From Deltaproteobacteria bacterium (lineage in GTDB: Bacteria > Myxococcota_A > Polyangia > Polyangiales > Ga0077539): DNA of 64,000 nt. How positions within the stretch are numbered: the first letter of the stretch is position 1; each line of letters opens with the position of its first letter. Location of the stretch: the NCBI GenBank assembly GCA_030694465.1, contig JAUXYJ010000055.1, positions 202,413 through 266,412 of the forward strand. Reading direction: 5' to 3'. The translations under genes were made by a program, and so were the position numbers. Shown in pieces: positions 24,085-32,679 of the stretch. The notes beneath the pieces were generated by a model, which made no database searches, was not told the DNA's origin, and saw nothing but the letters and a program-made list of their open reading frames with translations.

Positions 24085-25050
24085 TTATCTGGCGTTGAGC
24101 TCTGCGAGGGCATCGTTGTACTCGGTGGTCCAGCGGGCGACGAGCTCGGCCGTAGTGGGCACGTCATGCAACACGCCGATGCCTTGACCGCAGCCCCAGA
24201 TGTCTCGCCAAGCCTTCGCGAGCGAGGTCCCGCCTGAGCCAAAGTTCATCGCGCTCGGGTCGCTCTTGGGGAGATTGTCCGGATCGAGGCCCGCGTTCAC
24301 GATGCTCGCGCGGAGATAGTTGCCATGAACCCCAGTGAAAAGATTGGTGTACACGATGTCGCTGGCGGTGCCGTCCACGATGCCCTGCTTGTAGCTCTCG
24401 ATCGCGTGGGCCTCTTGCGTCGCGATAAACGCGCTGCCAACGTAGGCCAAATCGGCACCCATCGCGCGCGCTGCGAGCGCGCTGCGGCCGTTCGCGATCG
24501 CGCCCCCGAGCGCTAAAGGGCCCTTAAACCACTGACGGATCTCTTGCACGAGCGCGAAGGGTGACAGCAGCCCCGCGTGCCCGCCCGCGCCCGCGGCGAC
24601 CGCGATGAGCCCGTCTGCGCCCTTCTCAATGGCCTTGCGTGCGTGCACCAAATTGATCACGTCGTGCAGCACGATGCCGCCATACGAGTGGATCGCTTGG
24701 TAGACGTCCTCGCGCGCGCCGAGCGAGGTGATCACGACGGGTACCTTGTGCTTGACGCACATCGCGACGTCGGCCTCGAGGCGGTCGTTGCTCTTGTGCA
24801 CAATCTGGTTGACCGCGAAGGGCGCCGAGAGCGCGTCGGGGTTTGCGCGATCGTGCGCGTCGAGGGTCTCGCGGATTTCGCTGAGCCACTCGTCCAAGAG
24901 CGATGCAGGCCGCGCGTTGAGCGACGGAAACGAGCCCATGACGCCCGCCTTGCACTGCGCGATCACCAAGGGCGGCTGAGAGACAATAAACATCGGTGCG
25001 CCCACCAAGGGCAGACGCAACCGTCCATTGAATTGCTGGGGAAGTGCCAT
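24085..25050 (-). CDS. NAD(P)H-dependent flavin oxidoreductase / nitronate monooxygenase
   Basis: LPLVGAPMFIVSQPPLVIAQCKAGVMGSFPSLNAR, AVAAGAGGHAGLLSPFALVQEIR, GSAFIATQEA. Confidence 0.9.
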   Translation of the reverse strand: MALPQQFNGRLRLPLVGAPMFIVSQPPLVIAQCKAGVMGSFPSLNARPASLLDEWLSEIRETLDAHDRANPDALSAPFAVNQIVHKSNDRLEADVAMCVKHKVPVVITSLGAREDVYQAIHSYGGIVLHDVINLVHARKAIEKGADGLIAVAAGAGGHAGLLSPFALVQEIRQWFKGPLALGGAIANGRSALAARAMGADLAYVGSAFIATQEAHAIESYKQGIVDGTASDIVYTNLFTGVHGNYLRASIVNAGLDPDNLPKSDPSAMNFGSGGTSLAKAWRDIWGCGQGIGVLHDVPTTAELVARWTTEYNDALAELNAR

Positions 25051-25223
25051 GTTGCCTCGCACCGTATCCCGAGGACCTCCCAGCGCCCTAGTGACCTCGC
25101 GAGATTCACTGACGAAAATCGAAATCGTTTGACTAGAAGTCAAGTGCGAACGCAGCGAGACGCTACGCTCAAAATGGGCTAGCAACGCGTTGGGATGGGG
25201 CTGAGATCGCTCAGGAGAAAAGC

Positions 25224-25586
25224 ATGGACGTGACCGCAACATCGACATCGCCAGGGATCAAGTTTGACGAGCCCACGCAGACGCTGCGAATTTGGGGTGA
25301 GTCCTATCCCGAGAACGCGTTTGAGTTTTATCGGCCGCTTTTGAAGTGGTTGGACGCGCGAGTAAACACCGCGCCGCTGACGGTCGAGATGGACGTGACG
25401 TACATGAACACCAGCAGTGTGAAGTGCGTGATCGACATGTTTGATCGTCTCGAAGAGGGGCATCAAGCGGGCGGGGCGGTCTGCGTCGTGTGGCGCCATC
25501 GCGTTGAAGACGAGCGTGCGCGCGAGCTGGGCGAAGAGTTTAAAGAAGACCTCACGCTGCCGTTTGAGATGCATGCGTACGCATAG
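25224..25586 (+). CDS. siaC: SiaC-family regulatory phosphoprotein (DUF1987)
   Basis: SYPENAFEFYRPLLKWLD, MDVTYMNTSSVKCVIDMFDRLEEGHQAG, EFKEDLTLPFEM. Confidence 0.85.
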   Translation: MDVTATSTSPGIKFDEPTQTLRIWGESYPENAFEFYRPLLKWLDARVNTAPLTVEMDVTYMNTSSVKCVIDMFDRLEEGHQAGGAVCVVWRHRVEDERARELGEEFKEDLTLPFEMHAYA

Positions 25587-25629
25587 TGTTGGACCACTGA
25601 AGACCACCGCACCAGGAGACCCATCCCCC

Positions 25630-26181
25630 ATGCAATCAGGTCAGCTTCAGACTCTGAGCGATCAATTGACCCGCGCCAACGTGCTGCTGTGTTTTAACGG
25701 GCCGTTCTCGCACTCGTTGATTGAAGAGTTTGGCAAGGCGTTGCGCGCGTATCTCACGGTGAACGAGACGGACAAAGGCTCGGTGAGTGACGTGTTCTCG
25801 GTGTACATCGAGCAAGCACAAAACGTGAAAAATTACACGACATCGTACTTTCCTGCCGAAGTCGGGGGCTTGCTCCAGCGCGGGATTCTGGCGATCGCTC
25901 GTGAGCACGATGGCTACGTGATCTCGGCTGGAAACTTCGTGCGCAGCGAGCACGTTGAGCCTCTCCGTGCGCGGCTGCAAAGCGTCGTCAACGCAGACAA
26001 AGACTCACTCAAAGCGATGTACAAGCGTCAGCTACGGGCCGAGCGCAGCGAGGATTCGTCTGGGGCGGGGCTAGGGCTGCTCTCCATGGCCCGCGTCGCG
26101 TCGGCGCCACTCTCGTTTCACTTCGAGCCCTCGTCCGAGCACCACGCGCACACGTACTTCAGTCTCTCTGTGCAGGTCTGA
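25630..26181 (+). CDS. siaB: SiaB-family protein kinase (DUF6272-like)
   Basis: Gene context plus NYTTSYFPAEVGGLLQRGILAIAREHDGYVISAGNFV and GAGLGLLSMARVASAPLSFHF. Confidence 0.8.
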   Translation: MQSGQLQTLSDQLTRANVLLCFNGPFSHSLIEEFGKALRAYLTVNETDKGSVSDVFSVYIEQAQNVKNYTTSYFPAEVGGLLQRGILAIAREHDGYVISAGNFVRSEHVEPLRARLQSVVNADKDSLKAMYKRQLRAERSEDSSGAGLGLLSMARVASAPLSFHFEPSSEHHAHTYFSLSVQV

Positions 26182-26186
26182 GCCAC

Positions 26187-28229
26187 ATGGAACGCGCCGC
26201 CGCCACCGCAAACGCCACCGCGATGATCCCGCTGAGACACCGCTTTGTTGTGCGGGTCGCGCTTGGATTTTTGCTGTGTGTTTTGGTGCCCTCCGCGGTC
26301 GTCGGTTGGGTCTCTTACGAGACCGCCAAGCGCGTGCTGGTGCAAGAGCTCAAGCGAAGGCTCATCACCGTGGCCGAGCGCAAGGTCAACAAGCTCGAAG
26401 ACTGGACCGACCAGCAGCGCCGTGTGCTCGCCGCGATCGTGCGTGAGCCCGCGCTGCAGCAACAGATGGACGAGCTCACGCGCGCGCAGGACCAAGACCA
26501 GCGCCGCCGTCGTGCCTCTGGGCTGCTCTTGGGGATGGCCTCGCAGCTGCGGTTATTAGGCCGCGGATCGGCGCTCTTGGTCGACGCCAACGGGCAGGTG
26601 CTCGCTACCTCTGGCGACAGCAACCTCGCAGGGCAATCGCTCTCACGCGGGCTGCTCGCGCGCTCAGAACTCGGCCAGTCTTTCGACCGCGCGCGGATGG
26701 TGTATCAGACCGAGTTTACGGACTTCGCCTTGGCCACAGACCAGGGGGATCGACGAGAGCCTCGTGCTTGGTTGGCTGCGCCCATTTTGGCAACCGGGCA
26801 GGTCGTGGGTGTTTTGGTTGTGCAGATTGACAACGACGCGGTCTCGCGATTGAGCGCAGACCACGCAGGGCTGGGCTCGTCGGGCGAGGTGCTCTACGCC
26901 GGACGTGTGGGCTCGCTTCCCATGCTCATTGCGCCGACAAGGACTCACGCGAACGCCGCGTTTCGTCTGCAAATTCCCTCGCATAGCGCGGCAATCGATG
27001 CGCTCCGTGGCAGCTCCGGCGATGGCCTCCGACGCGACTATCGTGGGGTCGATGTGTTCGCGGTATGGCGCTATGTTCCGTCGTTGCGGTGGGGCGTGGT
27101 CTGCAAGATTGATGTCCACGAGGTGTTCGCGCCCGTCGAACGCCTTCGGCTACTGAGCATCGGCATCACTGCGCTCGCTGCGGCGTTGTCTCTCCTCGCG
27201 GCGTGGGTCTTTGGCCGCCGCTTGTCTTCTCCGCTCGAGACCATGACCCGCGAGGTCGTCGCCATCGGCCAGGGCAACCGAGAACAGGGAGTGTCCGCGC
27301 AAGGGCACGACGAGGTCGCTCACCTCGCGCGCGTCTTTAACGCGATGTTGGACGAAATCCGAGCGCACACAGAGGGCCTCGAAGGGCAGGTCGCTGAGCG
27401 CACGCGCGCCCTCGCAGAGGCCAACGAAGAGCTCCAAGTGCGAGGCCGACGGATTGAAGAGGGCGTGGCCCTCGCGCGACAGATTCAGGCCACCGTGTTG
27501 CCTTCGTTTACCGGCGAGCGCGCCGAAGTTGGCGGGCTGATCTGGCGTCCACTCGATCAGGTCGGCGGAGACATCGCGTTTGTCGAGCCTCTGGGTGAGG
27601 ACGGCTACGTCGCCGGGGTCATCGATTGCACGGGCCACGGCGTCCCCGCAGCGATCACCGCGATGTTTGCCTCGGCGATGTGCCAGCTCGCGTTGATCAC
27701 TCACGGATCGCAAGGGCCCGCTGCGGTCTTGCATGAGCTTGATCGTAGGCTCACGAGCACGTTTCGCCGAGCCAATGAGGCGGGGATTTCGCTGGGGCTT
27801 GATGTCGGTCTCGCGATGGTCTCGCGCGACGGGCCGGTGCGATTTGCGGGCGCGGGGATCCAGATTTTTTACGCACGAAGCGATGGATCTATCAGCGAAA
27901 AAGCAGGTCGTCGCCGCGGTTTAGGGTACGGTGAGCGAAAGCGCGAGGTCGCCATCACCGACGTGCTGCTCAGCGAGGAAGACATCACCACCCTCTATCT
28001 CTCGACCGATGGGATGTTGGACGAGCCGATCGGGCAGTCGGGCGAGGGCCTCGGTCGCTCGAAGCTCTTTGCGTTGCTCTCAGGGCTGCAATCGATGTCG
28101 ATCGCGGCGCAGCTTGAGACACTTGATGCGCAAGTGATCGCTCTGCGGGGCGCGCGGACACAACGCGATGACGTGACGGTGCTTGCCATGCGCGTGGGGC
28201 CAAACAGCAGCAACCGCCAGGTGGCTTAA
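26187..28229 (+). CDS. siaA: SiaA-like membrane PP2C/SpoIIE phosphatase with extracytoplasmic sensor and HAMP domain
   Basis: N-terminal TM, periplasmic region, HAMP (SPLETMTREVVAIGQGNREQGV), SpoIIE domain QIQATVLPSF...QVGGDIAFVEPLGEDGYVAGVIDCTGHGVPAAITAM. Confidence 0.85.
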   Translation: MERAAATANATAMIPLRHRFVVRVALGFLLCVLVPSAVVGWVSYETAKRVLVQELKRRLITVAERKVNKLEDWTDQQRRVLAAIVREPALQQQMDELTRAQDQDQRRRRASGLLLGMASQLRLLGRGSALLVDANGQVLATSGDSNLAGQSLSRGLLARSELGQSFDRARMVYQTEFTDFALATDQGDRREPRAWLAAPILATGQVVGVLVVQIDNDAVSRLSADHAGLGSSGEVLYAGRVGSLPMLIAPTRTHANAAFRLQIPSHSAAIDALRGSSGDGLRRDYRGVDVFAVWRYVPSLRWGVVCKIDVHEVFAPVERLRLLSIGITALAAALSLLAAWVFGRRLSSPLETMTREVVAIGQGNREQGVSAQGHDEVAHLARVFNAMLDEIRAHTEGLEGQVAERTRALAEANEELQVRGRRIEEGVALARQIQATVLPSFTGERAEVGGLIWRPLDQVGGDIAFVEPLGEDGYVAGVIDCTGHGVPAAITAMFASAMCQLALITHGSQGPAAVLHELDRRLTSTFRRANEAGISLGLDVGLAMVSRDGPVRFAGAGIQIFYARSDGSISEKAGRRRGLGYGERKREVAITDVLLSEEDITTLYLSTDGMLDEPIGQSGEGLGRSKLFALLSGLQSMSIAAQLETLDAQVIALRGARTQRDDVTVLAMRVGPNSSNRQVA

Positions 28230-28232
28230 CCA

Positions 28233-29483
28233 ATGTCCATTTTGAATCGACGTAGGTTGCTGGGGTTGGGGGCCGGAGGGGCCGCGGTGGCTTCCGCAGC
28301 GATGCTCACTCGCTGCGTAAAAAGGCAGTCGATCCGCGTAGGCATCCTCCACTCGTTGACCGGAACGATGGCGCTCAGCGAGCGGCCTGTCGCGGCGGTC
28401 ACCCGCATGAGCCTTGAGCAGCTCAACGCCAAGGGTGGTCTCTTAGGGCGCAACGTTGAAATCGTCGAAGCAGATGGTCAATCGTCGGGCGCGGTGTTTG
28501 CTCGTCAGGCCCGCAGGCTCATCGAGTCTGAGCGCGTCGATGTGATCTTCGGTTGCTGGACCTCGGCGAGTCGTCGCGCGGTTTTGCCTGTGATCGAGCA
28601 GGCCAAATCGCTCTTGGTCTACCCGGTTCAATACGAAGGCATCGAGCGCAGCGATCGCGCGATCTATCTCGGCGCCGTGCCAAACCAGCAGATCCTCCCG
28701 TCGGTCGCGTGGTGCTTTGCAAACCTGGGCCGCAAGTTCTTTTTAGTCGGCTCGGACTACGTGTTTCCGCGCTCAGCCCACGAGATTATCAAAGACCAAC
28801 TGCGCGCGATCGGTGCTGAATTCGTTGGTGAATCGTTTGTGCCGTTAGGCTCGCGAGATGTGTCGTCGATGATGGCCGCGATCCGCGACGCTTCGCCCGA
28901 CGTGATCCTCAACTCGATCAACGGGGACACGAACCTAGCGTTTTTTCGCGCGCTAAGAGCCACCGGAGAGCGTCGCATCCCGACCATGTCGTACAGCATC
29001 GCGGAGCCGGAGCTCCGGGCGCTTGGCGACGTCCAGCTTGAAGGTGAATACGCTGCGTGGAATTACTTTCAATCTCTGGATGGCCCCTCGAATCGTGCGT
29101 GGTTGCAGAGGGTCTTGGGGCGCTCGGTGGACACGGCGGTCTTGTCCGACCCGATGCAAGCCGCGTGGGTTGGGACGCACTTGTGGGCTCAGGCGGTCTC
29201 GAGCGTCGAGAGCTCGGACCCCACCGACGTGCGCGCGGGCATGCTCGGGCAGAGCATCGCGGCCCCAGAGGGCGTGATTACCATCGACCGCGAGACAGGA
29301 AACGCCTGGAAAATCGCACGCATCGGTCGTGTTCGCCGCGACCGCCAGTTTGACGTCGTCTGGAGCAGCGAGCGGCCTGTTCGTCCCGAGCCCTACCCCG
29401 CCTATCGCTCCCCCGAGGCCTGGGAGCGATACCTTCGCGACCTGTACAACGGCTGGGGACAGCGCTGGCAAGCCCCGGGCTAG
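28233..29483 (+). CDS. UrtA/AmiC-like periplasmic ABC substrate-binding protein (urea/amide family)
   Basis: RRRLLGLGAGGAAVASAAMLTRC signal; VGILHSLTGTMALSERPV, GCWTSASRRAVLPVIEQAKSLLVYPVQYEG, GSDYVFPR. Confidence 0.85.
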   Translation: MSILNRRRLLGLGAGGAAVASAAMLTRCVKRQSIRVGILHSLTGTMALSERPVAAVTRMSLEQLNAKGGLLGRNVEIVEADGQSSGAVFARQARRLIESERVDVIFGCWTSASRRAVLPVIEQAKSLLVYPVQYEGIERSDRAIYLGAVPNQQILPSVAWCFANLGRKFFLVGSDYVFPRSAHEIIKDQLRAIGAEFVGESFVPLGSRDVSSMMAAIRDASPDVILNSINGDTNLAFFRALRATGERRIPTMSYSIAEPELRALGDVQLEGEYAAWNYFQSLDGPSNRAWLQRVLGRSVDTAVLSDPMQAAWVGTHLWAQAVSSVESSDPTDVRAGMLGQSIAAPEGVITIDRETGNAWKIARIGRVRRDRQFDVVWSSERPVRPEPYPAYRSPEAWERYLRDLYNGWGQRWQAPG

Positions 29484-29528: not shown

Positions 29529-30917
29529 CTAGCCGCGGCGGACCGTCAGGGCCTCGATGCCGGGGCTCGCGGCGATCCATCCGGCCGAAGTGGCGAGCTG
29601 ACGGATCTCGTCGACCAGCGAGCGAAATACCACGGGTTTTCGAAGGACGCGCTCGACGCCGAGCGCCCGACACCGCCGCACCGCTTGCTCTGACGGGTCG
29701 GCCGACCAGACCATCGCCCGCATGCGCGCGCCGCGCCGACGCTCTCGCAGCTGCGCCAACAGCTCTGCGCCGTCCATCCCCGGAAGGTGCAGATCCAAGA
29801 TGACCAGGTCAGGCGCTGAGGCCCATCGGTTGAGCGCGTCTTCGGCCGAGTGCGCGATGTCCGTGTAGGTCTCGGCCGCCCCAAAGGCCGACTCGGCAGC
29901 GCGCCGCGCCAGGGTCGCCAGCGTGGCCTCGTCGTCCACGATCAGGATCCGCACAAACGCCGACGTGATGCTCTCCTCCGCGGGCTTCAGTGGCTGCTTC
30001 TCAAAGTGCGTGTGCGCGGTCTCGAGGGCGGTCGCGAAGCTGCGCCCATTCGCAAAGCGATCCGTGGGCTCTTTTGCAAGCGCGCGCTTCATGAGCGCGT
30101 CGAGTGGCGCGAGCGCTGGGTTGCGGTCACTCAGGGTCGGAATGGGATCTCCGACGTGCATCGCCATCAGCCGCGCGATGGTGTCCGCGCGGTAGGGTGT
30201 GCTGCCGGTGAGGGTCTCAAACAGCGTACAAGCGAGCGCGTAGACGTCGCACGTCGCGGTGAGGGGACGGTCGTGCAGGATCTGCTCGGGCGCCATGTAC
30301 GCGGGTGTTCCGACAAAGGTGCCGCTCTCATCGCGCGCGCTCCCCGCGGTGGTGGCGATGCCAAAGTCCACGAGCACCGCGCGCCCACTTCCCTGCTCGA
30401 TCACGATGTTTGATGGCTTGATGTCGCAGTGGACAAGCCCCGCCGCGTGCACCGCTGCGAGCCCGTCGGCGATCTGTCGCACGACGCTCACCGCGCGGAT
30501 GGCAGACAACCCTCGCGCATCGTGCTCGTCACCAATCGCCGCAGCGAGAGAGGTGCCATGGACAAACTCCATCGCAAAAAATGCCCGCCCGCGATCGAAA
30601 CCAAACGCGTACACGCGCGCGATGTGTTCGCTCTTGAGTGCCGCGAGCGCGACCGCCTCTCGACGAAACAGGCGCTGCTCTTCGATGCCGGACAGATGGT
30701 GTCCCAAGAACTTCAGCGCGACCTGCCTTTGGAGCGCCAAATCGTCCGCGACGTAGACATCCCCCATCCCGCCGGCGCCGAGCTTCTTCACGATCCTGTA
30801 GCGCCCATCCACCAGCGATTCATCGGGTGGGAGCGCGCTACCGCACAGCTCGCACATGGCGTTGTCGCCACGCACCAGGAGCTCACATTGCACGCACCAA
30901 CTCATAGGCCGTTCCAT
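29529..30917 (-). CDS. Ser/Thr protein kinase with N-terminal zinc ribbon and C-terminal response-regulator receiver domain
   Basis: CVQC..CELC ribbon; KLGAGGMGDVYVADD, HCDIKPSNIVI, GTPAYMAPEQ; C-terminal RILIVDDEA...DLVILDLHLPGMDGAELL...RKPV. Confidence 0.9.
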   Translation of the reverse strand: MERPMSWCVQCELLVRGDNAMCELCGSALPPDESLVDGRYRIVKKLGAGGMGDVYVADDLALQRQVALKFLGHHLSGIEEQRLFRREAVALAALKSEHIARVYAFGFDRGRAFFAMEFVHGTSLAAAIGDEHDARGLSAIRAVSVVRQIADGLAAVHAAGLVHCDIKPSNIVIEQGSGRAVLVDFGIATTAGSARDESGTFVGTPAYMAPEQILHDRPLTATCDVYALACTLFETLTGSTPYRADTIARLMAMHVGDPIPTLSDRNPALAPLDALMKRALAKEPTDRFANGRSFATALETAHTHFEKQPLKPAEESITSAFVRILIVDDEATLATLARRAAESAFGAAETYTDIAHSAEDALNRWASAPDLVILDLHLPGMDGAELLAQLRERRRGARMRAMVWSADPSEQAVRRCRALGVERVLRKPVVFRSLVDEIRQLATSAGWIAASPGIEALTVRRG

Positions 30918-30975
30918 AACGCATCAACGCCAAGATGGAAGCACTTGAAGGTCGCGATTCGTTGCAGCGCGCGCG

Positions 30976-32679
30976 CTATCGCCGGTGAAATGGCAGAGTG
31001 ACTACAAACGACGCGCCCGCGCCGACTACGGATTGCACACGAACTGAGCCGTTCATTCGTTCGCACACTCTGCGCACAATGGTGAGCCCTAGCCCGTGAC
31101 CGCCCTCGGTGCTCGTGAGTCGTACAAAGGGCTGAAAGAGCCGGGCGATCTGATCTTCAGTGAGCCCGCGACCGTTGTCGCTGATCACGATCTCTAGCGT
31201 TTGATCAGCGATTTCGCAGCTCAATTTGACATGCGGCGGGCGCCCTCCGTAGCGAAACGCGTTGGTCACGAGGTTCACGAGCGCAGCCTCGATCCAGGGC
31301 GCATACCCCAACGCGCGAGGCCACTGAGCGGGCACCTCAAGCGTGCCCTCAAGCTGCGTTTGGATCGGTACAACGCGCTGTTGGACCTGCGCAAACACGG
31401 CCCCGAGATCGACCGAGTCAAACTGCACGGCGCCGCGGCGGGCCTGCGCGAGCAAGAGCAATGCGTCGATAATCTCGAGCATCTTTTGCGCGGACCACAC
31501 GATGTCGTTGGACGTCGATCGCACCAAGGAAGGGTCGTTCGAGAACGACTCTTCGCACAGCATCGAGGCGAAGCCCATGACGCCTGCCAGCGGGTTCTTC
31601 AGATCGTGTGCGACGCGACCGGCAAACTCGAGCAGGTCTGAGTTGGCTTCTTCAAAAGCCGCCTTGCTGCTTCGCAGCTCGCGCTGATAGAGGTCGCTGA
31701 TTCGGCTGACTTTTTCGAGTCGTCGCGCGAGGCGTGTGTGCCTCACCGCGAGACTCTTCATGTCCTCTTGCGTGGGGTGGGTGAGGGCCGAGACAGACTG
31801 GAGCCACTGCGCTTCTTCGTGCTCTCCAAGGTGCGGCACAGAGACCAAACCACCCGTGTTGACTTGCGCAACAAGACGCAGCGAGACCAACGCGCATGTC
31901 TGCACGACGCTCTCGGAGGATGGCCGAAACGCAGAAAATACCTGAGAAACAGACTCGAAATCAGGCTGGTTCTCTGCCTCCATCGAGTTGAAGCGCTCGA
32001 GCTTAGACGCAAGCAACGAGCTGGCCGCGGGGTTGCCAATCCAGAGCGTGGTCTTTGCCGTGAGCGCGCGCTGACTCTCGGCGCGAGAGCCCTCCAACCA
32101 GCCCACCGTGTGCTCGGTGCTTAGCTTTGCGTCGATCGCTCCGTGAGAGATCCACCGCAGTGTCCGTGCAGTGAGATCGACGACGCCATACCAGAGAGAG
32201 CCGTCCTCGACCTTGCTCAGGGCGGTCTCTTCGTCCCAACGAGCGAGCACCGCAGACGGGTCGCGCCCGATCGCCGGAGACCATTGCGTGAGCGCGATCG
32301 CGTTGCGCAGAGTGAGCGCAACCACGCAGCTGCGTGTGCCGGGGAGCGCAACATCGATGAGATAAATCGCGAAGGTCTTTGCGGGCTCGATCCAGTGATA
32401 GCCCATGGTCGCGGCGCTGCTTTGCTCAGAGCCGATGTAAAATCCCTGGGCGTGAATCCCGTCGCTGAGCACTGGGGGCACCGACGCGCGCAGGGCATGT
32501 CGAAGCTGTTGCGTAGTCAGGAGCTTGCGCAGGTGCTCGCGCTCCATTTGCTCTCGCAGCGCAGCGGTCTCGCGCGCTTGTGCCGCGGCGCGGTCCCTCG
32601 ATTGCGCAAGTTCGGACTCAAGGGCCGCAATGCGCTGCAAAAATGCAGAGGGATTGTCAGGGGGTGCGTCAGGGGGCAT
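30976..32679 (-). CDS. Sensor histidine kinase with N-terminal coiled coil and apparently degenerate SpoIIE/PP2C-like domain
   Basis: HisKA FAGRVAHDLKNPLAGVMGFASML; HATPase NLVTNAFRYGG, ISDNGRGLTEDQI, GGHGLGLTIVRRVCE; SpoIIE-like DGSLWYGVVDLTARTLRWISHGAIDAKL. Confidence 0.85.
   Translation of the reverse strand: MPPDAPPDNPSAFLQRIAALESELAQSRDRAAAQARETAALREQMEREHLRKLLTTQQLRHALRASVPPVLSDGIHAQGFYIGSEQSSAATMGYHWIEPAKTFAIYLIDVALPGTRSCVVALTLRNAIALTQWSPAIGRDPSAVLARWDEETALSKVEDGSLWYGVVDLTARTLRWISHGAIDAKLSTEHTVGWLEGSRAESQRALTAKTTLWIGNPAASSLLASKLERFNSMEAENQPDFESVSQVFSAFRPSSESVVQTCALVSLRLVAQVNTGGLVSVPHLGEHEEAQWLQSVSALTHPTQEDMKSLAVRHTRLARRLEKVSRISDLYQRELRSSKAAFEEANSDLLEFAGRVAHDLKNPLAGVMGFASMLCEESFSNDPSLVRSTSNDIVWSAQKMLEIIDALLLLAQARRGAVQFDSVDLGAVFAQVQQRVVPIQTQLEGTLEVPAQWPRALGYAPWIEAALVNLVTNAFRYGGRPPHVKLSCEIADQTLEIVISDNGRGLTEDQIARLFQPFVRLTSTEGGHGLGLTIVRRVCERMNGSVRVQSVVGAGASFVVTLPFHRR

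Follow-up and report, generated by a model that had tools for sequence, protein, structure and literature searches.

In the open-access literature searched, work on SiaC concerns its activation of a single diguanylate cyclase of Pseudomonas. The locus described here encodes a SiaC together with relatives of its kinase SiaB and its phosphatase SiaA, followed by a gene for a UrtA-type binding protein, and raises the question of what such a switch senses and which protein it controls. The whole stretch of DNA analysed, called the window in the following, comprises 64,000 nucleotides (positions 202413-266412 of contig C17) of a 7.2 Mb genome that is 94% complete.

An earlier note, made from the letters alone, had described a tandem siaC-siaB-siaA-UrtA-like cluster at 25224-29483 with gaps of 43, 5, and 3 bp, the absence of a GGDEF gene from the window, and the absence of ABC permease and ATPase genes near the UrtA-like gene. 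The cluster was borne out by gene calls, Pfam, and NCBIfam, and both absences were confirmed, the second for urt permease and ATPase; ten GGDEF genes lie in the genome outside the window. Overlooked in that note were two genes directly downstream (29529-32679, minus strand), convergent on urtL and coding for a histidine kinase (HK) and a receiver-bearing Hanks kinase. They are part of the conserved locus, which has the following features:

25224-25586, plus strand: siaC (DUF1987/PF09345, E 8e-37), with the predicted phospho-acceptor Thr63 at 25410-25412
25630-26181, plus strand: siaB, SiaB-family kinase of SiaC (PF19788, E 2e-37; NCBIfam NF038262, 183 bits against a cut-off of 85)
26187-28229, plus strand: siaA, membrane receptor phosphatase (Pfam: dCache_1 26337-27101, HAMP 27210-27365, PP2C (SpoIIE) 27597-28196)
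28233-29483, plus strand: urtL, orphan UrtA-type binding protein with a Tat-like signal/anchor (PF13433, Peripla_BP_5, 453 bits)
29529-30917, minus strand: Hanks-type Ser/Thr kinase with a C-terminal receiver (Pfam: kinase 30054-30800, receiver 29604-29948)
30976-32679, minus strand: histidine kinase (HK), predicted SiaC target (Pfam: HisKA 31435-31632, HATPase 30985-31296)
31669-31722, minus strand: predicted SiaC-binding stalk motif of HK, RLEKVSRISDLYQRELRS, residues 320-337 (best PDB match SiaD, 7e6g)

A nitronate monooxygenase-type gene (24085-25248, minus strand) is divergent from siaC. Its longest open reading frame overlaps the siaC start by 25 bp, and the true start probably lies further inside this frame.

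The switch proteins and their distribution

The best PDB matches of the window SiaC, SiaB, and SiaA were the Pseudomonas SiaC, SiaB, and SiaA structures. The identities assigned to the three proteins in the earlier note also held for the functional residues, the roles of which were taken from PMC7647112 and PMC8457831. Aligned to 6kko/6k4f, SiaC keeps the NTS segment and the phospho-acceptor threonine, as well as the residues that contact SiaD, with two conservative changes (I71V and M75I). SiaB scored above the NF038262 cut-off and has the features of its family, namely the ATP-site motifs and the catalytic glutamate, which lies in YIEQAQN and aligns with that of 6kko_A. In the HAMP-PP2C protein SiaA, the metal aspartates of the DCTGHG, STDG, and RDD motifs align with 6k4e. 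Equivalog level was not reached for SiaA, SiaB, and SiaC (NF038263, 255 of 700 bits; NF038264, 162 of 225; NF038265, 124 of 150), and no SiaD diguanylate cyclase with a SiaC-binding stalk was found in the window or among the GGDEF genes of the genome.

By the three features tested, the window locus is a Sia-type partner switch; since the equivalog scores fall short of their cut-offs and SiaD is lacking, it is not an ortholog of SiaABCD. It shares with SiaABCD of Pseudomonas aeruginosa (PDB 7E6G) the PP2C of SiaA, the SiaB kinase, and the SiaC phospho-switch, including catalytic and contact residues, and also the stalk motif that immediately precedes the catalytic part of the target. In contrast to that system, the predicted target is a histidine kinase and not the GGDEF protein SiaD, the sensor half of SiaA is of another subfamily, and a binding-protein gene has been added. 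Judged from its sequence, the locus is a Sia variant with a predicted binding-protein input and histidine kinase output.

SiaC was found in five of 379 Myxococcota genomes, as a single copy in the genome under study, and only in this family, in three genomes, does UrtL occur in linkage with it. Conservation of the four-gene cluster across Myxococcota, which had been proposed as a check, is therefore poor, and the candidate claim that UrtL is conserved with siaA throughout the phylum was rejected. Within the family, the adjacency of the UrtA-like gene and siaA, on which the earlier note had let its reading depend, is kept in all three members carrying both. In G324, the genes for HK and the Hanks kinase-receiver are flanked by SiaB-SiaC on one side and SiaA-UrtL on the other; in G233, they adjoin a second SiaB-SiaC pair, at a distance from SiaA-UrtL.

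The histidine kinase and the stalk motif of SiaC targets

The SiaD stalk residues contacting SiaC are R74, K77, V78, R80, I81, S82, D83, R84, Y85, Q86, M88, R90, and D91 (PMC8457831, the eLife SiaC-SiaD structure). The window HK has the same residue at ten of these 13 positions, among them the S and Q by which the SiaC threonine is held; R84 is among the three differing positions, and the second motif of SiaD itself has a glycine there. An RxxKVxRISDxYQ-type stalk before the catalytic part, the mark of SiaC targets, is present in the window HK. In an alignment of the three family HKs (own, G324, and G233), the motif sits directly before HisKA, inside an otherwise divergent N-terminal half, and all three have the near-identical stretch RRLxKxxxISDxYQRELR in common.

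A search of the 61-residue HK stalk against 177,635 PDB sequences returned SiaD (7E6G) first, with an E-value of 2e-5 and matches to both SiaC sites of SiaD; the next match had an E-value of 0.7. The same stalk found only itself in its own genome (next E 2.1). Among Myxococcota, the N-terminal half with the stalk was recovered from the own genome, G233, and G324, which are the SiaC carriers of the family, plus one weak partial match. No transmembrane segment or known sensor domain was detected in HK. Its N-terminal part was considered as a possible degenerate PP2C domain; a weak SpoIIE match (E 0.18) occurs in the window protein only and in none of the relatives, and the AlphaFold model built from the three sequences had a mean pLDDT of 51.

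The output of the window Sia switch is most likely the adjacent HK bearing the stalk motif. The earlier note had postulated an output different from SiaD without specifying it; the difference is supported, and HK can now be named as the candidate. Alternatively, the target of SiaABC could, as in Pseudomonas, be a diguanylate cyclase, its gene lying at another place in the genome, with the neighbouring HK being a bystander. Ten GGDEF genes are available for this role, and SiaC partners in other bacteria are mostly GGDEF proteins, as they are at two SiaC loci of G062, from the same order. However, the stalk motif is present in none of the ten GGDEF loci, the whole-genome stalk search led to HK only, and HK accompanies the sia genes in three genomes, so that we consider a distant diguanylate cyclase quite unlikely.

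To follow the motif beyond this family, an HMM was trained on 24 stalks taken from GGDEF proteins next to SiaC in Pseudomonadota and Bacteroidota; the training set held no Myxococcota sequence and no histidine kinase. Run on 22,279 ORFs (2.85 Mb), it gave matches at E<1 exclusively within SiaC loci, and the window HK alone scored modestly (E 4e-3 in the 22,279 ORFs). Among GGDEF proteins, the motif was found in 27 of 28 near SiaC and in none of 22 elsewhere, with 24 of the 27 being training sequences or copies of them. The independent test lies in the histidine kinases: all seven with the motif belong to SiaC loci, and the one tabulated as far from SiaC is a short fragment of the window HK itself, which lies some 5 kb away from siaC. 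In the reverse direction, an HMM from the three HK stalks retrieved the stalks of SiaC-locus diguanylate cyclases next (E 6e-7 and weaker).

SiaC-linked histidine kinases were found by the motif HMM in three phyla, and SiaC-adjacent ones with the motif occur in Pseudomonadota (L179/L241, L209/L271, and L259) and Bacteroidota (L227/L296). Further SiaC-adjacent proteins with the motif were class III nucleotide cyclases (L283:4929-6386 and L317:1339-2400), GAF-HD proteins (L212, L215, L313:5416-7503, and L314:5746-7884), and a SpoIIE (PP2C) phosphatase (L232:1847-2893). Two Bacteroidota genomes, G396 and G382 (L244, L245, L248, and L251), have nine and six SiaC genes, respectively.

The authors of the eLife SiaC-SiaD study suggested that modulation of adjacent proteins is common among DUF1987 members (PMC8457831); a description of the range of SiaC target classes was not found in the open-access literature searched. 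It appears fairly probable to us that SiaC (DUF1987) acts as a general phosphorylation-gated clamp of helical stalks, an interchangeable coupling part that could switch any dimeric enzyme with the motif. Diguanylate cyclases, histidine kinases, class III nucleotide cyclases, HD-domain proteins, and PP2C phosphatases would be covered by the same reading, and the window SiaC would connect a receptor fed by a binding protein with a cascade of two-component and Ser/Thr kinase steps.

The Hanks kinase-receiver gene is paired with the HK gene in all three family members carrying it (own, G324, and G233), and its product is a probable partner of HK. It is from this conserved gene pairing only that phosphotransfer from HK to the receiver of the Hanks kinase is proposed, with moderate confidence.

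UrtL and the sensor half of SiaA

UrtL reached 426 bits with TIGR03407, under the curated UrtA cut-off of 492.75, and its best PDB match was 8TG1, followed by UrtA structures. Of the TAT/lipoprotein-like signal described earlier, the Tat-like RR and the hydrophobic segment stand; the two closest relatives keep just these and miss the lipoprotein cysteine, and the assignment as a lipoprotein was dropped. With UrtA of UrtABCDE (8HIC, 7S6E, and 7S6F), UrtL shares the fold family and the nine residues of the urea site (PMC10392092), all of which are identical in the alignment. Unlike that UrtA, it comes without permease and ATPase, scores below the curated cut-off, belongs to a separate clade, and has relatives that are membrane-anchor-like or kinase-fused.

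The settings of UrtA-type genes were surveyed in 80 genome loci and 31 Myxococcota genomes. Three main settings were observed: with urtBCDE, fused behind a Hanks kinase, and beside a dCache-HAMP receptor. UrtL-linked receptors of the last kind carry a PP2C output (window, G233, G324, L036, and L092), a histidine kinase output (L021, L030-L032, and probably L034), or a chemoreceptor output with chemotaxis genes nearby (L025-L027 and L033; L028 ends at the contig end); the receptor in L035 is a PAS protein cut by the contig end. The adjacency of binding protein and receptor is conserved, with several output domains, in four phyla (Planctomycetota, Bacteroidota, Pseudomonadota, and Myxococcota). 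In a tree with several long branches and an unsure inner order, one group unites the kinase-fused and dCache-linked UrtA-type proteins and is set off from transporter UrtA (92/95); L092 was recruited separately. Literature searches on UrtA-type sensors, at the level of titles and abstracts, turned up no account of the UrtL-dCache pair.

The survey also yielded observations on single lineages. Planctomycetal chemotaxis clusters start with UrtL and a dCache-MCP receptor (L025:1-8388, L026:7698-16247, L027:6948-16313, and L033:7905-16068); their CheW, CheR, and CheA were identified in single loci. Hanks kinases fused to a C-terminal UrtA-type domain (L015:6771-9173, L019:6516-9167, L141:5251-7995, and L143:5193-7679) occur in Planctomycetota and in one Myxococcota family, where they branch separately and number up to four per genome. 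Other Myxococcota families have UrtA-type proteins with no transporter genes, dCache receptor, or kinase fusion beside them (L147:2703-3983, L156:3330-4679, L148:5145-6461, and L167:5338-6657). In Emcibacter (L031:4373-12122 and L032:4352-11916), another large histidine kinase precedes the UrtL-dCache histidine kinase, the one in L031 being PAS-rich with receiver domains; L031 also has a receiver-HD protein after the UrtL-dCache histidine kinase, a possible sign of a c-di-GMP-type output in this case.

When the two halves of the window SiaA were searched separately, the sensor half had its best matches in UrtL-adjacent receptors (chemoreceptor of L033, 4e-39; histidine kinase of L021, 6e-39) and barely any match to other SiaA proteins (36 bits or less), whereas the PP2C half found SiaA of SiaB/SiaC loci first. 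As far as sequence can tell, the window SiaA is a chimera of a UrtL-linked-receptor sensor half and a SiaA-type PP2C half. The result speaks for a putative sensing unit made up of UrtL and the dCache domain, and does so more strongly than adjacency by itself, a sign that may be misleading (PMC11113362). The proposal of the earlier note that the binding protein presents a ligand to SiaA gains from the UrtL-SiaA adjacency and the homologous UrtL-linked receptors; the identity of the ligand is not settled.

It could still be argued that SiaA senses through its own dCache domain or through the state of the membrane, with urtL as a hitchhiking gene. dCache domains frequently bind ligands directly, Pseudomonas SiaA functions without an adjoining UrtL gene and was reported to respond to membrane perturbation upon cooling (PMC12834913), and adjoining binding-protein and sensor kinase genes can be functionally unlinked in Pseudomonas (PMC11113362). 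Hitchhiking would not, however, be expected to place the same sensor subfamily beside UrtL homologs in four phyla with different outputs, and the fusion of UrtL to kinases indicates a signalling use. We regard a hitchhiking urtL as unlikely.

Even less credit is due to UrtL as the binding protein of an ABC transporter encoded elsewhere, with the cluster coordinating uptake, which we consider very improbable. LIV-type permease genes do exist on other contigs (C32 and C44), but the C32 permease has a binding-protein gene of its own, and UrtL falls outside the transporter-linked UrtA clade. Moreover, UrtB, the Urt subunit searched, was not found above its curated cut-off in the 94% complete assembly (best 165 of 250 bits).

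Urea or a short amide is an uncertain first guess for the ligand of UrtL, and urea itself is possible at somewhat less than even chances. In five of the dCache-linked UrtL proteins, two residues of the urea pocket are changed (Q144A and N246V), and their ligand may differ; they correspond to the chemoreceptor-linked ones by count, as the changes were tabulated per column and not per protein. Urease alpha was not found in the assembly, and urea catabolism was rejected as a context. Because the assembly lacks both urease alpha and a UrtB-grade permease, the evidence argues against urea as a nutrient.

The use of a binding protein for signalling has several parallels. AmiC of Pseudomonas aeruginosa regulates AmiR in the cytoplasm. 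It resembles UrtL as a UrtA-family protein serving sensing and not transport (1PEA); in contrast to AmiC, which is more distant in sequence, UrtL has an export signal and its gene adjoins that of a membrane receptor. In LuxP-LuxQ, a membrane receptor reads the ligand state of an exported binding protein. GlnH-GlnX (PMC9769921) is alike in this respect; UrtL differs from both systems in its binding-protein family, and the output of the window receptor is the PP2C of a partner switch.

Proposed pathway and its meaning

We consider it likely, from the sequence relationships above, that the locus encodes a layered sensory pathway of three exchangeable modules, with UrtL-SiaA as input, SiaABC as switch, and HK (followed by the Hanks kinase) as output. 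UrtL, a Venus-flytrap protein whose pocket is of the urea type, would convey its ligand state by docking to the dCache domain on the periplasmic side of SiaA. Via HAMP, this signal would set the activity of the SiaA PP2C, which would oppose the SiaB kinase on SiaC Thr63. The chemistry of SiaA, SiaB, and SiaC is established in Pseudomonas, as is the loss of stalk binding upon SiaC phosphorylation, and the residues are kept in the window proteins. Dephosphorylated SiaC would then clamp the helical stalk before HisKA of HK, the equivalent of the SiaC site of SiaD, and switch HK, both the contact and its sign being predictions. HK would probably phosphorylate the receiver of the adjacent Hanks kinase, and the final output would be Ser/Thr phosphorylation and not c-di-GMP.

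Some observations speak against this pathway. The HK gene is convergent with urtL and therefore not co-transcribed with the sia genes, HK lies apart from SiaA-UrtL in G233, and the motif E-value of the window HK is only 4e-3. The reported response of Pseudomonas SiaA to cooling (PMC12834913) and the fact that binding-protein and sensor genes in proximity do not always work together (PMC11113362) count against it as well.

If the layered pathway is true, a histidine kinase would be driven through Ser/Thr phosphorylation of a partner instead of through a sensor of its own, and the UrtL-dCache pair would represent a widespread sensory module with exchangeable outputs. The stalk motif would predict the protein controlled by a given SiaC, with candidate targets that include histidine kinases, nucleotide cyclases, and HD-domain proteins in several phyla, and through it the function of many DUF1987 proteins would become directly testable.
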